DNA from: Flavobacteriales bacterium
Lineage (GTDB): Bacteria; Bacteroidota; Bacteroidia; UBA10329
Assembly (NCBI GenBank): GCA_016124845.1
Contig: WGMW01000016.1
Location: 1 to 64,000 of the forward strand
Direction: 5' to 3'
Length of the DNA stretch: 64,000 bases
The stretch's first letter is position 1. The number at the start of each line of letters is the position of its first letter. Of the stretch, positions 18,806 through 43,801 are shown one piece after another. The translations under genes were made by a program, and so were the position numbers. A model generated the notes under the pieces. That model had not been told where the DNA came from and searched no databases. It saw only the letters and a program-made list of their open reading frames with translations.

Positions 18806-19608
18806 ATCGTACCGATCGCGAAGACTGCGATCAGTCCAGAGATCGGTTCCAACACATGATACGTGGAACCGATAAGCGGATGCACGCGCCAAAATCCGTG
18901 AGGCTCTTTGATGGCATTCAGCACCAGCCATGTATTTTCTGACGCTGTTTCCTCGTAGGGGACGACCCATCCGAACATCATAGCTGCAACGACACCGATG
19001 ATCAAAACCAACAGCAGGTAAACCTCCGCGCGTTGGAAGAATGCAGTTGAGGCAGAGTTCACCCCTTGGTTGAACATTTTCAACAATGAAACGAACAATC
19101 CTGCACCCAACAGGTCAAGCACCACATCATTGAGTTCAAAATACTCCACATAATCGAACAACACTTGGTACTGATGCCATTCATCGAACAACATTACTGG
19201 CAGCGAAAAGGCAATGGCACCACCAAACCTTCCTACCAACGGATAAATCAGCATCGCCAGCAGACCAAACTCAATGGCGTGAATGAATTCGATGTTCATT
19301 TCCGTCAGCACGAAAAAATGAATGACCAATCCCACCAACGTGAGGGCGAGAAAGCCAAGTCCGACCTTGTCGATAGCCGTGCGCTGCCTAAAGCCGCGAT
19401 ACATCAGATAGACCACGAACAGCAACGCAACAACCGCAATACTCGCCACCACCTTATTGTAAACGGGTAGCGAAAGACTGTTCATCACCTCCACCGACAG
19501 GTTGACGAACCACTCGTGCGCAAATACAATGAATACGGCATAGCCGACAACCAACGCGAGATTGACCGACCGATGTTCTGACAACCAATGAATGATGCGA
19601 CCGATCAT
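18769..19608 (-). CDS. VanZ-like multi-pass membrane protein
   Basis: 279 residues with about seven hydrophobic segments. The middle part (EFIHAIEFGLLAMLIYPLVG, then a FDEWHQYQ segment and LNDVVLDLLGAG) follows the VanZ pattern of E..H, DE..Q and D..N/D..G; VanZ is the teicoplanin-resistance family. The function is otherwise unknown. It overlaps the upstream aminotransferase gene by 4 nt (ATGA), so they form an operon. It also overlaps the convergent metal-receptor gene at the 3' end, so its last 12 codons are antisense to that gene. Confidence 0.7.
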   Translation of the reverse strand: MIGRIIHWLSEHRSVNLALVVGYAVFIVFAHEWFVNLSVEVMNSLSLPVYNKVVASIAVVALLFVVYLMYRGFRQRTAIDKVGLGFLALTLVGLVIHFFVLTEMNIEFIHAIEFGLLAMLIYPLVGRFGGAIAFSLPVMLFDEWHQYQVLFDYVEYFELNDVVLDLLGAGLFVSLLKMFNQGVNSASTAFFQRAEVYLLLVLIIGVVAAMMFGWVVPYEETASENTWLVLNAIKEPHGFWRVHPLIGSTYHVLEPISGLIAVFAIGTIYLFMDSSKPAK

Positions 19609-20879
19609 TTTCCTGCCAGTTTCTTGACGGACACGACCAGTCGGTCCAATTCATCCAGAGAAGTATAAATGTGCGGACTGATGCGCACCGCGTCCATCCC
19701 ATTCCAAACGATAAAACCGACATCGAAGTTTGCGCTTTTTCGTAGCGCTGTGGCGATGTCACCAGCTGTGAGACCATCGATGGAGATGGTGGCCATGGCT
19801 CCACCGAATTCAGGTTTCAGCGAAGTATGAAGCGTCAAGCCCTCAAGGTCTTTCACCCGCTCCGCCCAGTAATTCTTGATGAAATGCAACCGCTTATGCA
19901 CGTTCTCCGCGCCCAGCTTCTGGTGAAAAGCAATGGCATCCAAAGCCGCCATCTCGGCAGGAATGGAACGCGTTCCGAGAAACTCAAACTTCCTGATGTC
20001 ATCGCTCTGAGGTTCGTAGGGCGACATGAGCGGCCATAGTGCGGCCTTCTTCTCCTTTTTGACAACCAAAGCACCCGTACCGAACGGAGCCCCAAGCCAT
20101 TTGTGCAGCGAAGTGGCCAAATAATCGCAACCAATTTCTTTGAACGATAGCGGAACATGCGCCAAGGCATGCGCGGAATCCACCACCACTTCGCAGCCCT
20201 TGGCCTTGGCCATTGCCGTGATCTCCTTCACAGGCATTACCTGCCCCGTCCAATTGATCACATGCGTAATATGAACCACTTTGGTTTTAGGTGTGATGGC
20301 CTTTTCATAAAGTTCCACTGCAAGACTCACATCTTCAATCGGTAATGGAAGTTTGACTTCTTTCAGAATGATTCCATCACGCATTTGGCGCTGTCGCCAC
20401 GCATTGAGCATGAACGGATAATCGAAATCGGACACCACCACCTCATCGCCTTCTCTCAGGTTCAGGCCGAAGATGACCGTGTTCAACCCTTCGGTCGTGT
20501 TTCGGTTGATGGCCACTTCCTCCGATTCCGCATCCATCAGGTTGGCCAATGCTTCGCGAAGCGGCTCTCGCTTGTCGTTCAGTTCGTGCCACATGTAGTG
20601 CGCAGGTGCCTTATTGCTGAGACGGTACATATCGATGTGCGAATCCTGCACCGACAGCGGTTGCGGCCCCACCGAACCGTTGTTGAGGTTGATCACCTTC
20701 TCATCCAACAGATAATGCTGCCGAACCTCACTCCAAAAATCTTCATCACCTATAAGATCATCTCCTTCGGGAACGACCAGCGGTTTTGCCTCGCATCCGC
20801 TCAGGGAAGGGACAAACGGCAGCGCAGCAGATGCCATCAGCGAACGTTTGAGAAAATCTTTCCGCGAGAGTTTGTCCAT
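19605..20879 (-). CDS. Exported class V aminotransferase-fold PLP enzyme (CefD-like)
   Basis: 424 residues. The core matches the isopenicillin-N-epimerase/cysteine-desulfurase-like branch: NRNTTEGLNTVIFGL for cofactor phosphate binding, VDSAHALAHVPL with the PLP-ring Asp, and ATSLHKWLGAPFGTG with the Schiff-base Lys. The N-terminus has a Tat-like SRKDFLKRS motif, a hydrophobic stretch and a lipobox LSGC near residue 29, suggesting export as a lipoprotein after folding with its cofactor. The substrate is unknown. ATG at 20879 (MDKLSRKDF) is chosen; TACCTTTG ends 4 nt upstream, implying a leaderless mRNA. Confidence 0.85.
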   Translation of the reverse strand: MDKLSRKDFLKRSLMASAALPFVPSLSGCEAKPLVVPEGDDLIGDEDFWSEVRQHYLLDEKVINLNNGSVGPQPLSVQDSHIDMYRLSNKAPAHYMWHELNDKREPLREALANLMDAESEEVAINRNTTEGLNTVIFGLNLREGDEVVVSDFDYPFMLNAWRQRQMRDGIILKEVKLPLPIEDVSLAVELYEKAITPKTKVVHITHVINWTGQVMPVKEITAMAKAKGCEVVVDSAHALAHVPLSFKEIGCDYLATSLHKWLGAPFGTGALVVKKEKKAALWPLMSPYEPQSDDIRKFEFLGTRSIPAEMAALDAIAFHQKLGAENVHKRLHFIKNYWAERVKDLEGLTLHTSLKPEFGGAMATISIDGLTAGDIATALRKSANFDVGFIVWNGMDAVRISPHIYTSLDELDRLVVSVKKLAGK

Positions 20880-20935: not shown

Positions 20936-21267
20936 ACAGTTTCAACTAAGTGTAGTCGAAATCCGGAGGCTCGGATTGGCATCCTACAACTGTGGGACGT
21001 GAATCCGTTAGTCCGGATTCCTATCCTACAACTGTTCGGTGGCAATCCTTTGCTCCAAATTGGCATCCTACAACTGTGGGACACGAATCTGTTAGTCCGG
21101 ATTCCTATCCTACAACTGTTGGGTAGCAATCCTTTGCTCCGAATTGGCATCCTACAACTGTGGGGCACGAATCCATAAGCTCAGAATCCTATCCTACAAC
21201 TGTTGGGTAGCAATTCTTTGTCCCGAATTGGCATCCTACAACTGTGGGACGCAAATCCGTAAGCTCA
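20936..21267. repeat. Tandem array of 42-bp repeats, two alternating unit types
   Basis: The 13-bp core ATCCTACAACTGT occurs at 20981, 21023, 21065, 21107, 21149, 21191 and 21233, always exactly 42 bp apart, with degenerate copies at both ends. Units alternate between type A (core then GGG, ending AATCCGTTAGTCCGGATTCCT or a variant) and type B (core then TCGG/TGGG, ending AATCCTTTGCTCC), giving an 84-bp higher-order period. Type A tails contain a 7-bp stem (GAATCCG at 21001 with CGGATTC at 21014), which decays in later copies. Because 42 is a multiple of 3, short frames with 14-residue repeats appear on both strands, but nothing suggests they are translated. Confidence 0.92.
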
Positions 21268-21288
21268 GGATCCTATTCTATAGGATCC
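21268..21288. repeat. Perfect hairpin closing the 42-bp array
   Basis: GGATCCTAT and ATAGGATCC form a 9-bp stem around a 3-nt loop (TCT). It replaces the core of what would be the eighth unit. No T tract follows on either strand, so it is not a classical terminator. Confidence 0.7.
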
Positions 21289-21625
21289 GTTCAACGAACT
21301 GTGTCAGCCCTGACCAGCCCCCCCGGCCCAGATCGGGGTGCCGTAGGTTGATCTCGGAACATGAAAAGTTGAACTCAACCCGGGGTCATGTTGAAGGTGA
21401 AAAGACCGGAAATGGCATACGGAAATATGTTTCCTGTTCGGGATTTTACCGATTTCAGCCCTAAACGTGAGATTGAAGTGGTAGGTTGAATTTTATGCCC
21501 CCGCGTCAACGGTTCATTGTCTTACAAACTCAAGGAAAAGTGCCTTTGTTCCCGATCTTATTACCAAGAACGGCCTCCCCAATTGCGACTCCCAAGGCGG
21601 CCTGTGTTATGCTATCCATCCCGGC
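21289..21625. other. Unassigned non-coding stretch between repeat array and copper cassette
   Basis: About 340 bp without a recognisable gene, RNA family or transposon end. It contains a C-rich patch (21318-21330) next to an ATCGGGGTG segment and short open frames with no family resemblance. It may be remnant DNA at the edge of the efflux cassette or a leftover of a lost gene. Confidence 0.5.
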
Positions 21626-21874
21626 TTATTCCTCCACTTTGGTCAGTTCCATTTCACAAACGGGGCATTTACCAGGCTGCTCGTATGTTTTTCCGTCCTC
21701 ACAGTCCATCGGGCACTGATACTTGGCCTCGGCATGTTGTACTTGATTGGTTGTATCGCTGTTCATTTCATGATGATGTTCTCCATCGTGGTGACCTCCA
21801 CCGCAACCGATGAATGCACCGATGGTCAAGCTCATTACAACTACTTTGACTGTTTTCATTATGCTGTTTTTCAT
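21626..21874 (-). CDS. Heavy-metal-binding-domain lipoprotein
   Basis: 82 residues. A lipoprotein signal (MKNSIMKTVKVVVMSL, lipobox FIGC) is followed by a His-rich segment (HHDGEHHHE) and a metal-binding domain YQCPMDCEDGKTYEQPGKCPVC with CPxxC...CPxC cysteines, the HMBD type also seen in copper ATPases and CusB proteins. It probably binds Cu or Ag in the periplasm and hands it to the efflux complex encoded upstream. It is last in the copper cassette. ATG at 21874 gives a complete lipoprotein signal; a start 15 nt further in (MKTVKV) is also possible. Confidence 0.82.
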   Translation of the reverse strand: MKNSIMKTVKVVVMSLTIGAFIGCGGGHHDGEHHHEMNSDTTNQVQHAEAKYQCPMDCEDGKTYEQPGKCPVCEMELTKVEE

Positions 21875-21910
21875 GTTTAGGGTCAATAATTCTTTTGCCA
21901 AATATTTTTA

Positions 21911-21997
21911 GGCCACAGAGACACAGATTTTCACAGAGGTTTTCACAGAAAAAATCATGTCCAGATAAGTTCTGTGTCTCTCTGTGCTTCTGTGGCT
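21911..21997. repeat. CCACAGAGACACAGA-type inverted repeat
   Basis: CCACAGAGACACAGA (21913-21927) is repeated in inverted form in the right half (about 21970-21996, reading GCCACAGAAGCACAGAGAG on the other strand). It lies between DUF302 and the lipoprotein gene. A degenerate relative is near 49995-50070. I recall similar sequence as a dispersed non-coding repeat in several bacterial groups. Confidence 0.55.
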
Positions 21998-22021
21998 ATT
22001 CCATTTTTCCAATGCATATCG

Positions 22022-22408
22022 CTAAAGGTCATTGATGACTTTTTTGAGACGCGATTGTACTTCTGAGGCAATGCTGCCAAGGCTGTCATTTTTAACGGCT
22101 GTCATGGAGGCCACAGGGTCTACCGCAGCCACTTCCACGGAGCCGTCCTCGTGTTCCTGCACAATGACGTTGCAGGGCAACATCAGCCCTATGTTCGGTT
22201 CTGCACCAACTGCTTTGTAAGCGAAATTCGGGTTGCATGCACCGAGAATGCGGTACTTTCTGAAATCCACATCCAGTTTCTTTTTGAACGTGGCTTTCAT
22301 ATCAATGTCTGTCAAAACACCGAAACCCTCTTCCTTTAGGGCAGCGGTCACGTTTTCGATGGCTTCATCAAAGCCGACATTCACCTTTTTACTGAAATAA
22401 TAACTCAT
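22022..22408 (-). CDS. DUF302 domain protein
   Basis: 128 residues matching the DUF302 fold: N-terminal SKKVNVGFDEAIENVTAALKEEGFGVLTDIDM, then YRILGACNPNFAYKAVGAEPNIGLMLPCNVIV, which includes the two conserved cysteines. No signal peptide is visible. The family is often found in metal-resistance and sulfur gene clusters; its biochemical role is not established. It is co-directional with cusB (58 bp downstream of it) in the copper cassette. Confidence 0.9.
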   Translation of the reverse strand: MSYYFSKKVNVGFDEAIENVTAALKEEGFGVLTDIDMKATFKKKLDVDFRKYRILGACNPNFAYKAVGAEPNIGLMLPCNVIVQEHEDGSVEVAAVDPVASMTAVKNDSLGSIASEVQSRLKKVINDL

Positions 22409-22466
22409 GGTCTATTTGTTATTGATTGTATAATTCTCTGCTTGATTCATTCTGTGGGACAATTGC

Positions 22467-24269
22467 TTACTGATAGGTTTCCTCTACGGAGCCGCACTTC
22501 AACATTTTGGCACCGAAGTAGGGGTTCCGTATCTGTTCTTCCGAACTGAACCAATACCCGCCTTTGTTGTCATTGACCATCGGGCAGAACTCGAGGAACA
22601 TCGGATGCCCAGGCTCCATTTTCACTCCGAACTTGGAAACAGCATCCTTCAGCGTTTCGCTGATCCGACCGAACGCTGCCCGTTCATCTTCAATGTTCTG
22701 TGTGCCGTCAAGCAGTTTGAGGTCTTTGGTAACGGAATTCAGATCCTTCATCCAAGCGTTGTGCGCATCTCCCAAAAGAAGGCTCATGTCAACTGAAGCG
22801 ATGGCCTTATTCAAGTTTCTGACCTCATTTTTCAGGTCGGCATCATCATCCGCCAGCTTGTCTTTCAATGGTAGATAGGCCATCAGCACCTTTCCAAGCT
22901 GTTGCTTGAACACTTCAGGAACCTTGGCCTTGTCAATCACCGCGTCTTTCTTCGCTTCAGGCATATCCATGCCTTCCATCTTCATACCGCCATGATGGTG
23001 TCCCGTGGATGTTTTTCCACCTGTTGGATTCATCATGCTTTTCTTGCCAGCCAGTTGCGCGGCCGCATCGATCTTGAACACCCCGTTCACCGCGATTTCC
23101 TCCCCTTCTTCCAACCCGTCTTTCACCACATAGAAATCGCCTGCGTCCTCACCAAGAATAATCTCACGGTAGATGAACGTGTTGTGTTCCCGATTCGGCA
23201 CTTTCACATACACCACAGCCCGTTTGCCCGTCCAGAGAACGGCAGACTTTGGCACCAACAGCTCGGCCTTGGAAACATTGAGTTTGGAAGTGATGATACC
23301 GTTGGCAAACATATCGGGCTTCAGTACGGTTTTCGGATTGGAAAGCTCCACACGCACATAGGCAACGCGTGTTTGAGGGTCGATGAACGGGTCGATGAAA
23401 GTGACGTTTCCCTTGTAGGTGTGTCCAGGCACCGATGACACCTCAATATCAATGCGGTCTCCGACCTTGATCCACGGCAGGTCGCTTTCGTATGCTTCAA
23501 ACAGCACCCAAACAGTGCTCAGATCCACAATTTGGAACAACTGCTGTCCTTCATGCACATGCTCACCTTCAATGGCGTTCAACTGCATTACATAACCAGA
23601 ATAATCTGACAGTACATCGAAGTCCGTTTCTATTTCTTTGGTCCGTTCGAGTTCCGCGATCTGCTCATCGGTCAACTTCCATTGGCGCAGTTTATACCGC
23701 GCGGCATTCACAAACTCAGGGTTCGTGGCCTTGTCTTTCAATACCTCAAAAAGTTCCTTCTGTGCGGTGACCAGCTCAGGCGAATAGATGGACGCCAACC
23801 GCTGTCCTTTTTCCACTTTTTCCCCCGTAAAATTCACATACAACTTTTCGATACGCCCTGGAATATGGATCGTTTGCGAGAGTTTCAACCGTTCATCGGG
23901 TTTTACTTTTCCGAGCAGACGGATCTCCTTTACGGGATCTTCCTTCTTCACCGTCATGGTCTGTATCTCCGCCAGTTTCATGGCCGATTCAGACATCGGA
24001 ACTTCATCAGGCAACACGTCTTCCTTGCTCTCCAAATTCTTCAATGGAATGAGGTCCATTCCACAGATCGGACACTTACCTGGTCCGTCCTGTCTTATCT
24101 GCGGATGCATGGAGCACGTCCATATCTGATGCTCTGGTTGATTGACTTCTTGATTTGCCGATGTGTCGGTTTCTTGATGAGATGACGGGATGATGAATTT
24201 GCCGATGAGAATTCCCACCACCAAAACCAAGATCAAGCGCAACCAATTGTTTTTCAATAGCTCTTTCAT
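22467..24269 (-). CDS. CusB-type periplasmic adaptor with metal-binding and DUF3347 domains
   Basis: 600 residues. An N-terminal membrane anchor (about 10-28) is followed by a heavy-metal-binding domain (WTCSMHPQIRQDGPGKCPIC, about 50-70), then the membrane-fusion core: barrel-sandwich halves around a coiled-coil hairpin with NFTGEKVEKGQRLASIYSPELV, and beta-barrel segments. The C-terminal ~160 residues, after a His/Met-rich linker (GHHHGGMKMEGMDM), form a DUF3347 domain ending in FCPMVNDNKGGYW. It links the RND pump to the outer-membrane channel. It is 6 bp downstream of the TolC-like gene. Confidence 0.93.
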   Translation of the reverse strand: MKELLKNNWLRLILVLVVGILIGKFIIPSSHQETDTSANQEVNQPEHQIWTCSMHPQIRQDGPGKCPICGMDLIPLKNLESKEDVLPDEVPMSESAMKLAEIQTMTVKKEDPVKEIRLLGKVKPDERLKLSQTIHIPGRIEKLYVNFTGEKVEKGQRLASIYSPELVTAQKELFEVLKDKATNPEFVNAARYKLRQWKLTDEQIAELERTKEIETDFDVLSDYSGYVMQLNAIEGEHVHEGQQLFQIVDLSTVWVLFEAYESDLPWIKVGDRIDIEVSSVPGHTYKGNVTFIDPFIDPQTRVAYVRVELSNPKTVLKPDMFANGIITSKLNVSKAELLVPKSAVLWTGKRAVVYVKVPNREHNTFIYREIILGEDAGDFYVVKDGLEEGEEIAVNGVFKIDAAAQLAGKKSMMNPTGGKTSTGHHHGGMKMEGMDMPEAKKDAVIDKAKVPEVFKQQLGKVLMAYLPLKDKLADDDADLKNEVRNLNKAIASVDMSLLLGDAHNAWMKDLNSVTKDLKLLDGTQNIEDERAAFGRISETLKDAVSKFGVKMEPGHPMFLEFCPMVNDNKGGYWFSSEEQIRNPYFGAKMLKCGSVEETYQ

Positions 24270-24275
24270 GTTCCG

Positions 24276-25520
24276 TTACTTTCCAGTTAAGTATTCAATA
24301 AATGCCGTGGCCGAATTCTTATCCGTCCTCGCCTTGTCCAGTTCCAATGCGTACTTCAGTACTTTCCGTTCCATCCGAAGCACTTCCTCAAAGCTTCTCC
24401 CATCATTCGAATAATCGGTGATGAGGATGTTGAGCGACTTCTTCGCCAATTTGAGCTGTGAGCGATAAAGCGTCAGCCGCCTGTCCGCATCGCTGTAATC
24501 ACGGAATGCCGCTTCGAACAGGGATGAAAGCTGGTTCTCCTTTTCCTGCCGTTCAAACTGGGCAGCCTCCATGTTCAATGATGCCTCTTTCACCATGGCG
24601 TTATACTTCTTCCTGTAAAGCGGAATGGTGATGCCCACGTTCGGGAACATGAGGATGTCGCGGCCGTTCTCGCTACTGTTCAACGCAGGATTGCTGCTCT
24701 TACCGACCATCGTGTAATCCACGCCCACAGAAAACGAAGGAAGCCCCATGCGCTTGGCCGCTGTCTGCTGTTTTTCCCACGTCATGATGCGATGCTCCAA
24801 TTGCTTGAGCTGATGGTTCTGCACCTTGATGCTGTCCAGCACAGATTGCTTGCTAATGGTCAGCGGGTCATCCCAAAGGGTGTCGGGGATGAGAATAGTG
24901 GCGTCATCGGCCACATCAAGCAGATTATTGAACTTGACCTCCAGCACCCGCTTGTTGTCGTGCAGCAGCGCAAGTTGATTTTCAAGATCTGCCAATTCCA
25001 TGCTCACCCGCATCTCATCAACGGCAGAACCCGTTCCCGCTTCAAAGCGGATAAGCGCCAACCGATTGAGCGTACCGATTATGTCAATATTCTCCTTGGT
25101 GATGTCGATGGCCTTCTGCACCAGATAGATGTCATAGTAAGCGGAACTCACATCGTAGTACAACCCCGAACGCGCCTCCTCAAACTGCTCGTAGCGTTGC
25201 TTGGCAGCTTCGGTGGCCACATCTTTCTTGGCTCCCAGCGTTCCGAACCACGGGAACATCTGCTTGGCCGAAAACTTGGCCAGTTGCGGCCCGACCCGCG
25301 TTTCCACAGGCAGAATGAAATACCCGAACGCGATGCTCGGATCGGGCAAGCCACCAACCTGAGGTACTTTTTCCAATGCCGCCAGATATTCATTGAACTT
25401 GGCCTTCAGGCCAGGATTGTTCTTAGCGGCCGTCACCAGATAGCTGTCCAATTCTTGCTGTGCGAAGACGGAACAACCCAAAAGCAACAGCGGCACTATG
25501 GATGATATGATACGTTTCAT
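24276..25520 (-). CDS. TolC/CusC-family outer-membrane efflux protein
   Basis: 414 residues. A signal peptide (residues 1-20, ending VFA-Q) precedes two related alpha-helical halves typical of outer-membrane efflux proteins, with long heptad-like helices (for example LEHRIMTWEKQQTAAKR and LSSLFEAAFRDYSDADRRL). It is shorter than E. coli TolC, as usual for Bacteroidota CusC-like members. It overlaps cusA by 4 nt (ATGA), so the tripartite pump genes are translationally coupled. Confidence 0.9.
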   Translation of the reverse strand: MKRIISSIVPLLLLGCSVFAQQELDSYLVTAAKNNPGLKAKFNEYLAALEKVPQVGGLPDPSIAFGYFILPVETRVGPQLAKFSAKQMFPWFGTLGAKKDVATEAAKQRYEQFEEARSGLYYDVSSAYYDIYLVQKAIDITKENIDIIGTLNRLALIRFEAGTGSAVDEMRVSMELADLENQLALLHDNKRVLEVKFNNLLDVADDATILIPDTLWDDPLTISKQSVLDSIKVQNHQLKQLEHRIMTWEKQQTAAKRMGLPSFSVGVDYTMVGKSSNPALNSSENGRDILMFPNVGITIPLYRKKYNAMVKEASLNMEAAQFERQEKENQLSSLFEAAFRDYSDADRRLTLYRSQLKLAKKSLNILITDYSNDGRSFEEVLRMERKVLKYALELDKARTDKNSATAFIEYLTGK

Positions 25521-28500
25521 GACGTTGCTTTTTTATCTGTTCGTTTCACGATACGTTCCTGCCACATACTGTATAGCACAGGCACAATGAACATGGTCAT
25601 CACCTGTATAAGCATGCCCCCGAAAAGCGGAATGGACATCGGTCCCATGATGTCGGAACCCTTGCCTTGCGAGGTGAGTACGGGGATGAGCGCAATGATG
25701 GCCGTAGCTGCGGTGAGCATGGCTGGCCGAACACGCTTGGAAGCGGCATCAAGCACATCTTTCCTCACTGCCGCAAGATCCTTTGGTGGGAACTTCTCGA
25801 ACTGCTGTTTGAGGTAGGTTCCCATAATGACCCCATCATCCGTGGCAACTCCGAACAGCGCAATGAACCCGACCCAAACGGCCACACTCAAATTGACCGT
25901 ATGTACTTGGAACAGTTCGCGCATGTCAATGCCCGCCACATGGAAATGAAGGAACCATCCCTGACCGTAGCACCACAGCATGATGAACCCGCCCGACAGC
26001 GCCACAAACAGTCCGCTGAAAACCATACTTGTCATCGTTACCGAACGGAACTGGAAATAAAGAATGAGAAAGATGATGAGCAGCGAGATGGGCATTACCA
26101 CCATCAATCGGTTGGTGGCGCGCAGTTGGTTCTCATAGTTGCCCGTAAAGTGATAGCTGACACCTGACGGAAGCACCAACTCTCCCGATTTCAGCTTGGC
26201 ATCGATTACGTTCTGGGCATCTTCCACCACATCCACCTCCGCGTTCCCGTCCTTCATGTCAAAGATCACATAGCCGACAAGGAACGTGTCCTCACTCTTT
26301 ATCGCCTGCGGCCCGCGAACGTAATTGATGGACGCCAGTTCCTCCAGCGGAACCTGTACACCTGCCGGAGTTGGGATGAGCACATTCTTCAGATCATCCG
26401 GGTTATCTCGGAACTCACGCGCATACCGCACACGCACCGGAAAACGCTCCCGCCCTTCAACCGTGGTCGTCAGTTTCATACCACCGATGGCCACGCTGAT
26501 GGTCTTTTGCATGTCCTCAATGGTGAGGCCGTAACGCGCAATGGCCTTGCGGTCAATATCGATCTCCAGATATGGCTTGCCCACCACGCGGTCGGCAAAC
26601 ACGGCCGATGCTTCCACCGTTGGCACTTGCTTCAACACATTCTCCAGTTCGTAACCCGCCTTTTCAATGCTTTCGAGGTCGGGGCCGAACACCTTGATGC
26701 CCATCGGGGCGCGCATGCCCGTTTGCAGCATCACCAGCCGCGTCTGTATCGGTTGCAGTTTGGGAGCCGAGGTCAGACCGGGAATCTCTGCGTTCTTCAA
26801 TATCTCATTCCAGATATCGTCTGGCGAATGGATGTGTTCCCGCCATTGGCGGAAATACTCTCCGTCCTTGTCTTCAATAAGTTCCGCGTTCTCAATTACT
26901 CGGAACGCATCCTCACCGTATTTATACGTAGTGCTGTCTTTCAGAATGAACGCCCCATCCTCATTCACTTTGAACCGCATGCGTTCGCCATCCTCGTTCA
27001 ATTTGAACTCAGGTACATAATTGATCAGGTTCTCATACATGGAGACCGGAGCCGGGTCGAGGGCGGAATTCACCCGTCCCCATTTGCCAACGGTCACATC
27101 CACTTCGGGAATCGCATTCAGATTGCGGTCCACCTTTCGGATCACATCCAAATTCTCGGCAATACCCGAATGCGGCATGGTCGTGGGCATCAGCAGGAAC
27201 GAGCCTTCATCCAAGGAAGGCATGAACTCCTTGCCCAATCCAGGAAAGGTGGTTTGCATGCTTTGCCAACCCGAGGTTGAACGGATGTCCCAACCAAGCT
27301 TATCGACACCCTTGGCAATCGGCCCGAAAACCGTATCGAACCCGAGCCAACTGTTCGCTCCAAACACGATGACCACAATCGGAAGGGCGAGGAACTTCCA
27401 TTTGTTGGCGAGGCACCAGATCAGTATCGGTCGGTAAAAATGAATGACCGAAAGCAGCAGCCCAAGAATGACCCCATTCACAACAAGCACAAAAAGCATG
27501 TTGGAGAAGAAACTGTTCTGCGCGCCCAATGGCATCCATTGCACCGCAATGAAGTAACCGACAACAAGCACCGAAAGCACCACATCGATCACATTCACGT
27601 ACTTCCGTTTGTCTTCGGGCCAAAGCGGTTCCAACAGGTTATTGATACCGAACAGCACCAAGGCCAACGCCAGCCATTTTCCGAAGACCACCGCCAGCAA
27701 CAGACCGACCACGATCAGCGAGATGTTCCAGACCTTACCCACGCGCCCCTTGTCCAATCGCAAACCGAAAACGATATGCGCAAACATGGGAATGAAGATG
27801 AGTCCGATGACCAAAGCAGCGAGCATCGCAAAGGTCTTGGTGTAGGCCAGCGGAGTGAAGAGTTTTCCCTCGGCCGCCTGCATGGCGAACACAGGCAGAA
27901 AACTGACGATGGTGGTCATCAAAGCGGTAATGACGGCCGTGGCCACCTCCGCAGCACCTTCATAAATAACCTCCAGCAATTCTTTTCCTCGCTTACCCTC
28001 ATTCTCAGGCATTTCCTTGTGCCGGACGATATTCTCCGTGAAGACGATACCCACATCCACCATCACCCCGATGGCAATGGCAATACCCGAAAGCGCCACG
28101 ATATTCGCATCGATACCGAACTGCTTCATCATAATAAACGCCATCAGCACCCCGATGGGCAACAGGCTGGCAATGAGCAGAGAGGCCCGCAGGTTCATCA
28201 CCATCACGATGATCACCAGCAACGCGATCAGCATTTCCAAGGTCAGCGCATCCTCCAGCGTGCCGAGCGTTTCCTTTATCAGTCCCGTGCGGTCGTAAAA
28301 CGGAACGATGGTCACTTTAGAGGTGGTGCCATTCGCCAACTTCTTGCTCGGCAGACCCGGTTCAATTTCCTTGATCTTCTCCTTCAGGTTATTGATCACC
28401 TGCAGCGGATTGGCACCATAGCGCGCCACCACAACGGCACCTACAGCTTCCGAACCGCCCTTGTCCAACCCACCTCTGCGTGTGGCCGGACCGAAATTGA

Positions 28501-29344
28501 CCTTCGCCACATCCTTGATCTTAATGGGCACATTATCCTTCGAGATGATGACGCTCTCCTCCAGATCCTGAAGGTTTTCGATGTAGCCCAATCCTCGTAT
28601 CAGATACTCCACACGGTTGAACTCGATCGTCCGCGCACCGATATCGAGGTTGCTCTTCTTCACCGCGTTCATGATCTGCGCCACCGTTACGTGGTGGGCC
28701 TTCATGGCATTCGGATCGATATCCACCTGATACTCCTTCACAAAGCCACCGATGGAGGCCACTTCCGAAACGCCATCCACCGCGGTAAGCGCATAGCCCA
28801 CCTGAAAATCCTGAATGGTCCGCAACTCCTGCGGGTCCCAACCTCCTGTGGGGTTGCCGTTCTCATCCCGCCCTTCAAGCGTGTACCAGTAGATCTGTCC
28901 CAAGGCCGTGGCATCTGGCCCCAGCGCAGGCGAAACACCATCGGGCAGTGTTCCATCTGGCAACGAACTCAACTTCTCCAGCACCCGCGAGCGGCTCCAA
29001 TAGAACTCCACATCATCATTGAAAATGATATAGATGCTCGAAAGCCCGAAAATGGAATTGCTGCGGATGGTCTTCACCCCCGGAATTCCGAGCAGGGATG
29101 TGGTCAGCGGATACGTGATCTGATCCTCCACATCCTGTGGCGACATGCCCGGCCATTCCGTATAGACGATCTGCTGGTTCTCACCGATGTCCGGAATCGC
29201 ATCCACAGGCACCGGGTCGCGCGGAAACCAAGTGCTCTTCCAATTGAAAGGCGCATTGGCCACGCCCCATGCCACAAGCGCGCACAGCAGCAGAAGCGTT
29301 ACAAGTTTGTTCTCAAGAAAGAACCGTATGAATTTATTAAGCAT
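25517..29344 (-). CDS. CusA/CzcA-type heavy-metal RND efflux pump
   Basis: 1275 residues from the ATG at 29344 (MLNKFIRFFLENK). Typical HME-RND features are visible: the N-terminal helix, DIGENQQIVYTEWPG, the transmembrane IAIAIGVMVDVGIVFTENIV segment with proton-relay acidic residue, QTRLVMLQTGMRAPMGIKVFG in the porter domain, and GVATDDGVIMGTYL near the C-terminus. Unlike the ~1040-residue E. coli CusA, it has about 200 extra residues, with additional hydrophobic segments near the middle (about 530-700), as in many Bacteroidota homologues. With its adaptor and channel partners it is expected to export Cu(I)/Ag(I); zinc/cobalt specificity cannot be excluded. Confidence 0.93.
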   Translation of the reverse strand: MLNKFIRFFLENKLVTLLLLCALVAWGVANAPFNWKSTWFPRDPVPVDAIPDIGENQQIVYTEWPGMSPQDVEDQITYPLTTSLLGIPGVKTIRSNSIFGLSSIYIIFNDDVEFYWSRSRVLEKLSSLPDGTLPDGVSPALGPDATALGQIYWYTLEGRDENGNPTGGWDPQELRTIQDFQVGYALTAVDGVSEVASIGGFVKEYQVDIDPNAMKAHHVTVAQIMNAVKKSNLDIGARTIEFNRVEYLIRGLGYIENLQDLEESVIISKDNVPIKIKDVAKVNFGPATRRGGLDKGGSEAVGAVVVARYGANPLQVINNLKEKIKEIEPGLPSKKLANGTTSKVTIVPFYDRTGLIKETLGTLEDALTLEMLIALLVIIVMVMNLRASLLIASLLPIGVLMAFIMMKQFGIDANIVALSGIAIAIGVMVDVGIVFTENIVRHKEMPENEGKRGKELLEVIYEGAAEVATAVITALMTTIVSFLPVFAMQAAEGKLFTPLAYTKTFAMLAALVIGLIFIPMFAHIVFGLRLDKGRVGKVWNISLIVVGLLLAVVFGKWLALALVLFGINNLLEPLWPEDKRKYVNVIDVVLSVLVVGYFIAVQWMPLGAQNSFFSNMLFVLVVNGVILGLLLSVIHFYRPILIWCLANKWKFLALPIVVIVFGANSWLGFDTVFGPIAKGVDKLGWDIRSTSGWQSMQTTFPGLGKEFMPSLDEGSFLLMPTTMPHSGIAENLDVIRKVDRNLNAIPEVDVTVGKWGRVNSALDPAPVSMYENLINYVPEFKLNEDGERMRFKVNEDGAFILKDSTTYKYGEDAFRVIENAELIEDKDGEYFRQWREHIHSPDDIWNEILKNAEIPGLTSAPKLQPIQTRLVMLQTGMRAPMGIKVFGPDLESIEKAGYELENVLKQVPTVEASAVFADRVVGKPYLEIDIDRKAIARYGLTIEDMQKTISVAIGGMKLTTTVEGRERFPVRVRYAREFRDNPDDLKNVLIPTPAGVQVPLEELASINYVRGPQAIKSEDTFLVGYVIFDMKDGNAEVDVVEDAQNVIDAKLKSGELVLPSGVSYHFTGNYENQLRATNRLMVVMPISLLIIFLILYFQFRSVTMTSMVFSGLFVALSGGFIMLWCYGQGWFLHFHVAGIDMRELFQVHTVNLSVAVWVGFIALFGVATDDGVIMGTYLKQQFEKFPPKDLAAVRKDVLDAASKRVRPAMLTAATAIIALIPVLTSQGKGSDIMGPMSIPLFGGMLIQVMTMFIVPVLYSMWQERIVKRTDKKATS

Positions 29345-29347
29345 TTT

Positions 29348-29480
29348 ACCCCTCTTTGTCTCCCCCAAGGAGAGAATTCGCTATGATGAATAGAGTTGGT
29401 GAGACGCAACGTCTCTTGCATCTGCAACTATCGCATGCAGACGCGCCAAAGCCTCTCCGCCTTAGGCGGATTGGAGGGGT
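29348..29480. repeat. MITE-like inverted repeat ahead of cusA
   Basis: Ends ACCCCTC (29348-29354) and GAGGGGT (29474-29480) are inverted. The interior has two perfect hairpins, GAGACG-CAA-CGTCTC (29401-29415) and CCGCC-TTA-GGCGG (29457-29469). It resembles the element at 63236-63337 in having ACCCCTC ends and internal C-rich palindromes, so both may belong to one non-autonomous family. Confidence 0.5.
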
Positions 29481-29998: not shown

Positions 29999-30072
29999 TG
30001 ACCCCGGAGAGATTCGAACTCCCAACCCTCAGAGCCGAAATCTGATATTCTATCCAGTTGAACTACGGAGCC
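29999..30072 (-). tRNA. tRNA-Arg(TCG)
   Basis: 74-nt cloverleaf on the minus strand with acceptor GGCTCCG, anticodon stem TCAGA/TCTGA around loop TTTCGGC (anticodon TCG, decoding CGA) and T arm GGGAGTTCGAATCTCTC. CCA is not encoded. Its 3' end faces the copper cassette. Confidence 0.93.
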
Positions 30073-42012: not shown

Positions 42013-42087
42013 CGCACGGGAGGAGAGACTCGAACTCCCGACACCTGGTTTTGGAGACCAGTGCTCTACCAACTGAGCTACACCCGT
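42013..42087 (-). tRNA. tRNA-Trp(CCA)
   Basis: Cloverleaf on the minus strand: D arm GTAGCTCAGTTGGTAGAGC, anticodon stem CTGGT/ACCAG around CTCCAAA (anticodon CCA), T arm with GAGTTCGAGTCTC. The acceptor has one T-T mismatch. It sits between tuf and secE, the usual location in bacteria with this cluster. Confidence 0.93.
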
Positions 42088-42102
42088 TTATTGACGGCTA
42101 AA

Positions 42103-42126
42103 GGCATCCCGACAAGTCGGGACACC
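42103..42126. other. Hairpin between tuf and tRNA-Trp
   Basis: TCCCGAC and GTCGGGA form a perfect 7-bp stem with a 2-nt loop, extended by flanking GG/CC pairs; on the minus strand only TTT follows. It is probably a weak terminator or processing site at the end of the tuf mRNA, 16 bp before tRNA-Trp. Confidence 0.5.
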
Positions 42127-42153
42127 TTTTCACCATCAGTTATTATCTGCTCC

Positions 42154-43341
42154 TTACTTAAGGATCTCAGTGATCTGACCTGCACCTACAGTTCTACCAC
42201 CCTCACGGATAGCGAAACGTAGACCCACGTTCATAGCTACTGGCACGATCAACTTAACAGTGATTGTCAAGTTATCTCCAGGCATTACCATCTCCTGTCC
42301 TTCTGGAAGGAAGATCTCTCCAGTTACGTCAGTTGTACGCACGTAGAACTGAGGACGGTATTTGTTGTGGAACGGAGTGTGACGACCACCTTCTTCTTTC
42401 TTAAGAACGTAGATCTCAGCCTTGAACTCTGTATGTGGAGTGATAGAACCTGGCTTAGCGATAACCATACCTCGCTTGATGTCAGTTTTATCAATACCTC
42501 TAAGAAGAAGACCAACGTTGTCTCCAGCCTCTCCTCTGTCAAGGATCTTACGGAACATCTCAACACCAGTAATGGTAGAGGTCAACTTCTCCTCACCCAT
42601 TCCAAGGATCTCAACAGCATCACCTGTATTGATAACACCTGTTTCGATTCTTCCTGTTGCAACAGTACCACGACCAGTAATTGAGAACACGTCCTCAACT
42701 GGCATCAAGAATGGCTTATCAACTTCACGCTCTGGAATCTCGATCCAAGAATCAACAGCTTCCATCAACTTCATTACAGTATCAACCCACTTAGGCTCAC
42801 CGTTCAGTGCACCCAAAGCAGAACCTTGGATAACTGGAGTGTTGTCGCCATCGTACTCGTAGAAAGAAAGAAGTTCACGAACTTCCATATCCACAAGCTC
42901 CAAAAGCTCTTCATCATCCACCATGTCGCACTTGTTCAAGAACACAACGATTCTTGGAACGTTTACCTGACGGGCAAGAAGGATGTGCTCGCGGGTCTGT
43001 GGCATTGGACCATCAGTAGCAGCACAAACAAGGATGGCACCGTCCATCTGTGCAGCACCAGTAACCATGTTCTTAACGTAGTCAGCGTGACCTGGACAGT
43101 CAACGTGAGCATAGTGACGATTAGCAGTAGAGTATTCTACGTGCGAAGTATTGATGGTGATACCACGCTCTTTTTCTTCAGGAGCGTTATCAATAGAATC
43201 AAAACTTCTTGCCTCAGACAGACCGGCATCAGCCAATACTTTGGTGATGGCAGCTGTCAAGGTTGTTTTACCGTGGTCAACGTGGCCGATAGTACCAATG
43301 TTAACATGCGGCTTAGAACGATCAAAGGTTTCTTTGGCCAT
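42154..43341 (-). CDS. tuf: Elongation factor Tu
   Basis: 395 residues, full length. GTPase motifs [10 protein letters not shown] (about 19-28), the effector region [15 protein letters not shown] (G3) and NKCD (G4) are intact, followed by domains 2 and 3 ending [10 protein letters not shown]. It delivers aminoacyl-tRNA to the ribosome. It is embedded in the tRNA cluster: four tRNAs upstream and tRNA-Trp downstream. Confidence 0.99.
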
Positions 43342-43425
43342 GGTTAAAGATTAATTTGGGTTATTTATTTATGTTACTGATTACTTACTAAAACTATTTC
43401 TCTCTCGCCTCTTCCGAATTATGCA

Positions 43426-43499
43426 GAGCCAATGAGGGGAATTGAACCCCTGACCTCTTCCTTACCAAGGAAGCGCTCTACCCCTGAGCTACATCGGCT
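43426..43499 (-). tRNA. tRNA-Thr(GGT)
   Basis: Cloverleaf on the minus strand with acceptor AGCCGAT/ATTGGCT, D arm GTAGCTCAGGGGTAGAGC, anticodon stem CTTCC/GGAAG around TTGGTAA (anticodon GGT) and T arm GGGGTTCAATTCCCC. It is the closest tRNA to tuf. Confidence 0.93.
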
Positions 43500-43536
43500 T
43501 TCACACCCCCACAGCTTCGGGGTTTTTCGAAAAATG

Positions 43537-43609
43537 AGCGGGAGACGAGATTCGAACTCGCGACCCTTAGCTTGGAAGGCTAATGCTCTACCAACTGAGC
43601 TACTCCCGC
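43537..43609 (-). tRNA. tRNA-Gly(TCC)
   Basis: Cloverleaf on the minus strand with acceptor GCGGGAG/CTCCCGC, D arm GTAGCTCAGTTGGTAGAGC, anticodon stem TTAGC/GCTAA around CTTCCAA (anticodon TCC) and T arm GCGAGTTCGAATCTCGT. Confidence 0.94.
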
Positions 43610-43620
43610 TTTTTTCTTTC

Positions 43621-43706
43621 TGGTGGGGAGAGAAGGATTCGAACCTTCGAAGGTAAAAACCAACAGATTTACAGTCTGTCCTCGTTGGCCGCTTGAGTAT
43701 CTCCCC
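43621..43706 (-). tRNA. tRNA-Tyr(GTA)
   Basis: 86-nt class II tRNA on the minus strand with a long variable arm, acceptor GGGGAGA/TCTCCCC, anticodon stem CAGA/TCTG around CTGTAAA (anticodon GTA), and an encoded CCA at the 3' end, unlike its neighbours. Confidence 0.94.
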
Positions 43707-43727
43707 AGCCTAATTTTTCAAAGAACG

Positions 43728-43801
43728 AGCCGGTGGAGGGATTCGAACCCCCGACCAGCTGATTACAAATCAGCTGCTCTGGCCAGCTGAGCTACACCGG
43801 C
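43728..43801 (-). tRNA. tRNA-Thr(TGT)
   Basis: Cloverleaf on the minus strand with acceptor GCCGGTG/CACCGGC, D arm GTAGCTCAGCTGGCCAGAGC, anticodon stem GCTGA/TCAGC around TTTGTAA (anticodon TGT) and T arm GGGGGTTCGAATCCCTC. It is first in the tRNA-tuf transcript. Confidence 0.94.

Follow-up and report, generated by a model that had tools for sequence, protein, structure and literature searches.

The question raised by this locus in the genome of a Flavobacteriales bacterium is the identity of a strictly periodic tandem array, i.e., whether it belongs to a gene, to a known class of bacterial repeats or to an element of another kind. The window considered, namely the whole stretch of 64,000 nucleotides that was analysed, holds the array proper on the plus strand at 20975-21268, where seven 42-bp palindromic units follow one another in the order A-B-A-B-A-B-A with a dyad every 21 bp. 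The core of these units (ATCCTACAACTGT) starts at positions 20981, 21023, 21065, 21107, 21149, 21191, and 21233, with a spacing of exactly 42 bp, and TRF returns a period of 42 bp (7.4 copies) as well as a period of 84 bp (3.6 copies, 87% matches, 0 indels, score 449). The self-identity of the array reaches 0.90 at a lag of 84 and 0.63 at a lag of 42, where other lags average 0.24, and its periodicity is thus far above chance. As such, the description given in an earlier note on this DNA, i.e., seven cores exactly 42 bp apart and two alternating unit types giving an 84-bp period, is borne out by core positions, TRF and the lag-84 identity, as is the decay of the type-A stem along the array, where pairs of the tail stem GAATCCG/CGGATTC are lost toward the right end. 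The two unit types share a constant core and diverge at about one third of their positions, and the same alternation is found in a sibling array on contig C8.

A feature absent from that description is that each 42-bp unit is, over its whole length, an imperfect palindrome. The dyad centres lie at columns 14.5 and 35.5 of the unit, 21 bp apart, tandem palindromes giving two dyad centres per period, and Watson-Crick pairing at these two dyads amounts to 67% and 56% compared with a background of 25%. The core forms the centre of the first dyad, with CAACTG sitting at one dyad centre. Over 12 double units from two species, pairing at the first dyad is 88.6%, against 27-46% with slid partners. Compensatory differences are further observed from B to A units (e.g., C-G to G-C) and also between species, in an alignment that includes related sequences and makes them supportive rather than independent evidence.

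Considering first the possibility of a coding repeat, all frames but one either contain stops in the window array or are devoid of synonymous signal, and the synonymous excess is significant in no frame (best p 0.06, uncorrected over six frames); besides, 20 of 53 related arrays presented below have a period of 41 bp, with which a reading frame cannot be kept. A CRISPR array is equally discarded, there being no unique spacers between constant repeats. On both points, the interpretation of the earlier note holds, a note that proposed no identity for the array. No match of the array to Rfam 15 is found above the gathering threshold, tRNAs being the sole matches in the window; five tRNA genes are clustered at 42015-43801 on the minus strand and a sixth lies at 29999. 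A plasmid or phage origin was also rejected, the array DNA being absent from the plasmid and phage sequences searched.

The edges of the array are of two different natures. On the left, at its distal edge, a 31-bp leader (AACTAAGTGTAGTCGAAATCCGGAGGCTCGG) occupies 20944-20974 on the plus strand, and an 11-mer within it (AAGTGTAGTCG) recurs at the left edge of five arrays belonging to three species, namely those of the window, of contigs C8 and C34 in the same genome, and of the congeners G002 and G004; it occurs nowhere else in 0.9 Mb of scanned loci, where 0.43 chance matches would be expected. On the right, a truncated eighth unit of B type, broken inside its core according to the unit tables, covers 21269-21282 on the plus strand, and an IS256-type terminal sequence (TCCGTTCAACGAACTGTGTC; 21286-21305, plus strand; 1 mismatch in 20 to TCTGTTCARYRAACTGTGTC) has its outer end toward the array, interrupting unit 8 without being array sequence itself. 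A full-length element with such ends encodes Transposase_mut, a Mutator-family transposase (E 4.5e-106), and no second IS256-type end is present left of the window array within 5 mismatches. The hairpin GGATCCTAT/ATAGGATCC at 21268-21288, which the earlier note took for the close of the array, is indeed perfect (9-bp arms, 3-nt loop), but only its left arm derives from the array, while its right arm comes from the IS256-type end; it is therefore a junction feature and not the array's own terminator.

The check proposed in the earlier note, i.e., searching the unit against the rest of the genome and relatives, uncovers sibling arrays on two other contigs (C8 and C31) and a stub on C34, as well as related arrays in congeners. 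Contig C8 terminates in a seven-unit array 84% identical to that of the window, and contig C31 starts with one unit followed by decayed units; with these two copies at contig ends, the true number of arrays may be higher. The stub on C34 is interrupted by a 79-bp MITE (L010:1020-1098) with IS256-type ends, at nearly the same core position as the break in the window. At least five IS256-family copies (L152-L156) are present in this genome, with ends GAGTCTGTTCAATAAACTGTGTC as in the 79-bp MITE. Beside the arrays on C8 and C31, the 3' end of a gene for a DoxX-like membrane protein is duplicated, and the loci concerned by co-duplication of this 3' end with the array are L008:6940-7582, L009:1-320, and L010:1099-1300.

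Such a landscape would suit a neutral or selfish minisatellite, shaped like BrickBuilt and PgRS/464 of Porphyromonas by slippage, duplication and IS rearrangement and without any function toward a neighbouring gene, since the arrays of this genome stand at unrelated loci with decayed edges, are co-duplicated with the DoxX-like 3' end and are cut by IS256-type ends. In Porphyromonas gingivalis, the BrickBuilt (23 nt) and MITE464/PgRS (41 nt, in tandem) repeats lie inside MITEs with IS5-type TIRs (PMC4596501). Like them, the arrays described here are intergenic, spacer-less and in tandem in Bacteroidota, with similar unit lengths (41 nt for PgRS), conserved edge segments and assembly breaks at the arrays. 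Unlike them, the window array has no terminal inverted repeat pair and its units are palindromic; moreover, no tie to a gene family is described for BrickBuilt/PgRS, whereas arrays of the wider class precede one protein family, as detailed below. Overall, a neutral minisatellite is considered unlikely, the facts weighing against it coming from these gene-associated arrays.

REPs are also imperfect palindromes, some of which occur in tandem arrays (PMC3733652, PMC3116915), and the window array could in principle consist of tandem GTAG-type REP elements mobilised by a RAYT transposase, as GTAG adjoins the palindrome in the window unit, the minus strand reading GTAG then imperfect palindrome, and as this genome encodes Y1 (IS200-like) transposases. 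Against this, the only array match in the vicinity of a Y1 gene is the C34 stub, which lies about 1 kb away from a Y1 fragment at a contig edge; the palindrome that flanks C54, the strongest RAYT candidate, is a perfect one of another sequence; GTAG is missing from the related arrays; and the copy number is low, with about four loci in the genome. With no RAYT gene flanked by, or linked to, the window repeat, this explanation is largely refuted and must be regarded as highly improbable. Separately, at L165:1289-2002, an IS200-like (RAYT-type) transposase gene lies between perfect 12-13-bp palindromes (ATAGCCCACGG...CCGTGGGCTAT) and probably represents a distinct REP system.

Beyond this genome, the exact core is found in tandem in none of 84,980 genomes nor in IMG/VR, indicating that the core itself is species-specific; single-core matches in genomes of the class were not in tandem, looked coincidental and were dismissed. 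A looser, arm-based pattern retrieves one 42-bp array from a congener (G008, Flavobacteriales bacterium Tobar13m-G24) as well as palindromic arrays with a 41-bp period from Hoylesella enoeca and from a Saprospiraceae MAG. As the pairwise-alignment similarity of the G008 unit (about 1% by shuffling) was not relied on, homology is taken from a covariance model trained on the window genome and G008. This model matches the held-out congeners G002 (E 4.6e-12), G003 (E 2.0e-11), and G004 (E 1.4e-5) as well as the distant genome G070 (E 1.8e-5), and the arrays of these four genomes have a period of exactly 42 bp. Weak matches outside the genus (G060, G013, G095) corresponded to coding-like sequence with no tandem array and were excluded from the counts. 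In the Saprospiraceae genome (UBA6168, L173:1301-1400), the palindromic array has 2.4 copies with GATTGCC/GGCAAT arms and no gene of the family introduced hereafter nearby, and in H. enoeca JCM 12259 (L171:1592-1782) it has 4.7 copies and is followed about 70 bp further on by a DUF6261 gene. Sequence similarity reveals no kinship between DUF6261 and that family, and it may be that arrays of the 41/42-bp type serve further protein families as well.

In G002, G003, G008, and G070, the genes that directly follow the arrays all encode one protein family, of about 320 aa; most members measure 313-333 aa, and W-Y-N-F-T motifs open the sequence. The first 220 residues are predicted, with low confidence, to be mainly helical and are apparently followed by a small C-terminal beta domain, variable between members; an AlphaFold2 model of one member made without alignment, with a mean pLDDT of 38.9, was set aside as unusable. 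No whole-protein match to the family is found in Pfam, PHROG, PADLOC or PDB, a CarboxypepD_reg-like tail being seen in three members, and no known DNA-binding domain is detected among the 45 members scanned. Of 395 Bacteroidia genomes, 21 contain the family (nine matches at most in a single genome), which was not found in plasmids (72,556 searched), phages or IMG/VR.

The strength of this association was assessed with TRF, applied to the surroundings of each of 64 family genes drawn from 18 Bacteroidia genomes. Of these genes, 53 have upstream a palindromic array with a period of 41 bp (20 genes) or 42 bp (33 genes), and only two have one downstream; without the four discovery loci, 49 of 60 genes still have an upstream array. 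As for the remainder, three further genes have a contig edge at 320 bp or less upstream, and eight show neither a detectable upstream array nor a close contig edge. The family genes L266, L289, and L308 start at 320 bp or less from a contig end, which suggests that upstream arrays break short-read assemblies and thereby hide the pairing. Draft assemblies make up the greater part of the genomes analysed. As a control, 400 kb of other DNA, taken for the most part from these genomes, yielded four arrays of 42-43 bp with no family gene; from this figure, i.e., about one array per 100 kb, about one of 64 upstream windows of 1.5 kb would be expected to carry an array by chance. The 42-bp tandem arrays recorded in such regions include L321:17882-18114, L326:12464-12664, and L330:18882-19068. 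In the array-gene cassettes, the end of the array lies at a median of 121 bp (36-560) from the start codon, every paralogue carries its own array, the copy number is mostly 5-7 (range 2.6-15.8), and within most arrays the units are near-identical, typically with 0.6-0.98 of columns conserved.

These figures return to the neutral minisatellite explanation. It does account for near-identical loci differing in copy number (6.1 versus 8.0; 6.8 versus 15.8), but an upstream rather than downstream position at a single family is unexpected for neutral repeats, and so is a fixed 41/42-bp period with palindromy despite the turnover of the sequence. Across arrays, paired consensus columns are Watson-Crick in 56% of cases versus 23-29% when slid, and period and palindromy persist while units change in sequence far more rapidly than the protein; unit similarity is 0.76 at 70-90% protein identity and falls to 0.44-0.46, i.e., the shuffled level, when protein identity is below 50%. 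Within arrays, deviations at paired columns covary no more often than chance predicts (34 versus 30.3), and the symmetry thus does not appear to be repaired unit by unit. Only one sequence signal is found across the class, AAcTG, a weak motif that marks one dyad centre of the 42-bp arrays (information content 8.6, the null reaching at most 6.9). The window core matches it exactly with CAACTG, and so do the arrays of G002, G004, G022, and G093. A search for arrays matching their own downstream gene gave 4 marginal matches out of 53 and was not retained.

Would such symmetry act at the level of RNA? In that case, the array would form in the 5' UTR a chain of hairpins controlling translation, decay or termination of the downstream message. 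For the window array, strong RNA folding is predicted for either strand (z -6.4 and -6.1), and the compensatory differences noted above, both from A to B units and among species, go in the same direction; in many cassettes, moreover, the array ends at 36-57 bp from the start codon, which makes it likely that it is either transcribed or the site of the promoter. If RNA pairing were selected, G-U would nonetheless be tolerated; the gene-sense strand shows 725 G.T cells versus 912 A.C cells, i.e., no excess of G.T and no sign of selection on sense RNA pairing. Nor is there any enrichment of TAnnTTTG, the Bacteroidetes -7 promoter motif, in the DNA before the arrays, which also speaks against RNA hairpins; the Bacteroidetes promoter motif shows only a weak excess between array and gene. 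Taken together, a role as RNA hairpins appears distinctly unlikely.

Plasmid partition operons offer another point of comparison, with upstream centromere or iteron arrays that are helically phased and whose architecture is conserved while their sequence diverges. The arrays described here similarly place helically phased repeats before a gene, with an architecture outlasting the sequence, and the protein, or a partner, could form a sequence-specific nucleoprotein array on its own repeats, as with centromere or iteron arrays upstream of the operon of their binder. The spacing of the dyads by two helical turns, the weak AAcTG centre motif and the presence of one array per paralogue agree with this. 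Sequence-specific recognition is, on the other hand, hard to reconcile with units at the shuffled level while the proteins are still 35-50% identical, and with the lack of a known DNA-binding domain in the 45 members; unlike plasmid partition arrays, the cassettes are chromosomal, many per genome, with no partition genes recognised and none found in the 72,556 plasmids. Such a sequence-specific complex is accordingly held to be quite improbable.

Returning to the window, the reading preferred here, and judged somewhat probable on the basis of sequence comparison, is that the array would be an orphan copy of a Bacteroidia array-gene cassette, in which the array most likely acts in cis and is under selection for symmetry and spacing rather than for sequence. 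The window array shows the exact 42-bp period, the palindromic unit and the dyads half a period apart, and it is homologous to the arrays of intact cassettes by model matches, leader and centre motif. What it does not have is a family gene downstream. No family member is detected in this genome, the arrays of which are thus read as orphans, and no credible tblastn match to the family lies near the window array. In G002, the leader is distal and is followed by the array then by the gene; from this polarity, the gene would be expected in the window right of 21288 on the plus strand. At this site, the IS256-type end is followed by a metal-resistance cluster on the minus strand, where the right neighbour of the array is a gene for a heavy-metal-binding-domain protein (21626-21901) and a plus-strand cassette gene is absent. 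The left neighbour, a class-V aminotransferase gene on the minus strand (19605-20878), is not a cassette gene either. On the right, the minus-strand metal-efflux cluster extends over 21626-29368, with the heavy-metal-binding protein, DUF302, a CusB-like protein and probable CusC/CusA-like proteins. We infer from the polarity, no remnant of the gene being visible, that the gene was lost from the window copy through an IS-linked rearrangement. The window array would then be a decaying relic and, with no cassette gene beside it, its function in situ is doubtful.

In intact cassettes, the array may work as a cis-acting DNA element located in the promoter or 5' region of the downstream gene, the expression of which it would tune. 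Recognition would proceed via the form of the DNA, namely symmetric sites two helical turns apart, where either a dimeric protein would bind repeatedly on one face of the DNA or cruciforms would extrude. The arrays would grow and shrink by slippage or unequal crossing-over, and copy number may vary expression. Position in the promoter/5' region, double-strand symmetry, two-turn spacing and fast turnover all favour recognition of DNA form; as a mechanistic step taken alone, and reasoned from sequence features, this tuning of the downstream gene is plausible while falling somewhat short of probable.

A further proposal is that each protein of about 320 aa forms with its own fast-evolving palindromic array a new two-part system, of which the window copy would have lost the protein, the array acting through RNA hairpins, through cruciforms or as a phased nucleoprotein filament. 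This proposal is put forward tentatively, as rather doubtful. The closest analogue in layout is TIGR-Tas, in which each unit includes variable 9-nt spacers and the associated protein is of the Nop-domain type (PMC12045711). Shared between the two are 5-15 units in tandem, each with a pair of alternating symmetric elements, a position beside one gene, and repeats that are conserved within a locus and differ from one locus to another. In contrast to TIGR-Tas, the units are near-identical within most cassette arrays with no variable 9-nt spacers, no Nop family match exists among 45 family members, and the window array has no associated protein. As such, BrickBuilt/PgRS, TIGR-Tas, and REP/RAYT each fail to account for the arrays in at least one tested defining feature.

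In the open-access literature searched, no earlier description of the pairing of array and gene was found. The term "categorically new" applies in this sense, i.e., not found here, to the array-gene cassette and not to the window copy, which is a relic; it is nevertheless this relic that led to the cassette class. If the two-part system holds true, it would constitute a new module made of repeats and a protein, of the same general kind as CRISPR or TIGR loci though with a different task. More generally, symmetry and period being kept while the sequence is replaced suggests selection on the form of the DNA over its sequence, and, if the array does control the gene, changes in copy number would provide a tunable switch over a multi-gene family in Bacteroidota.
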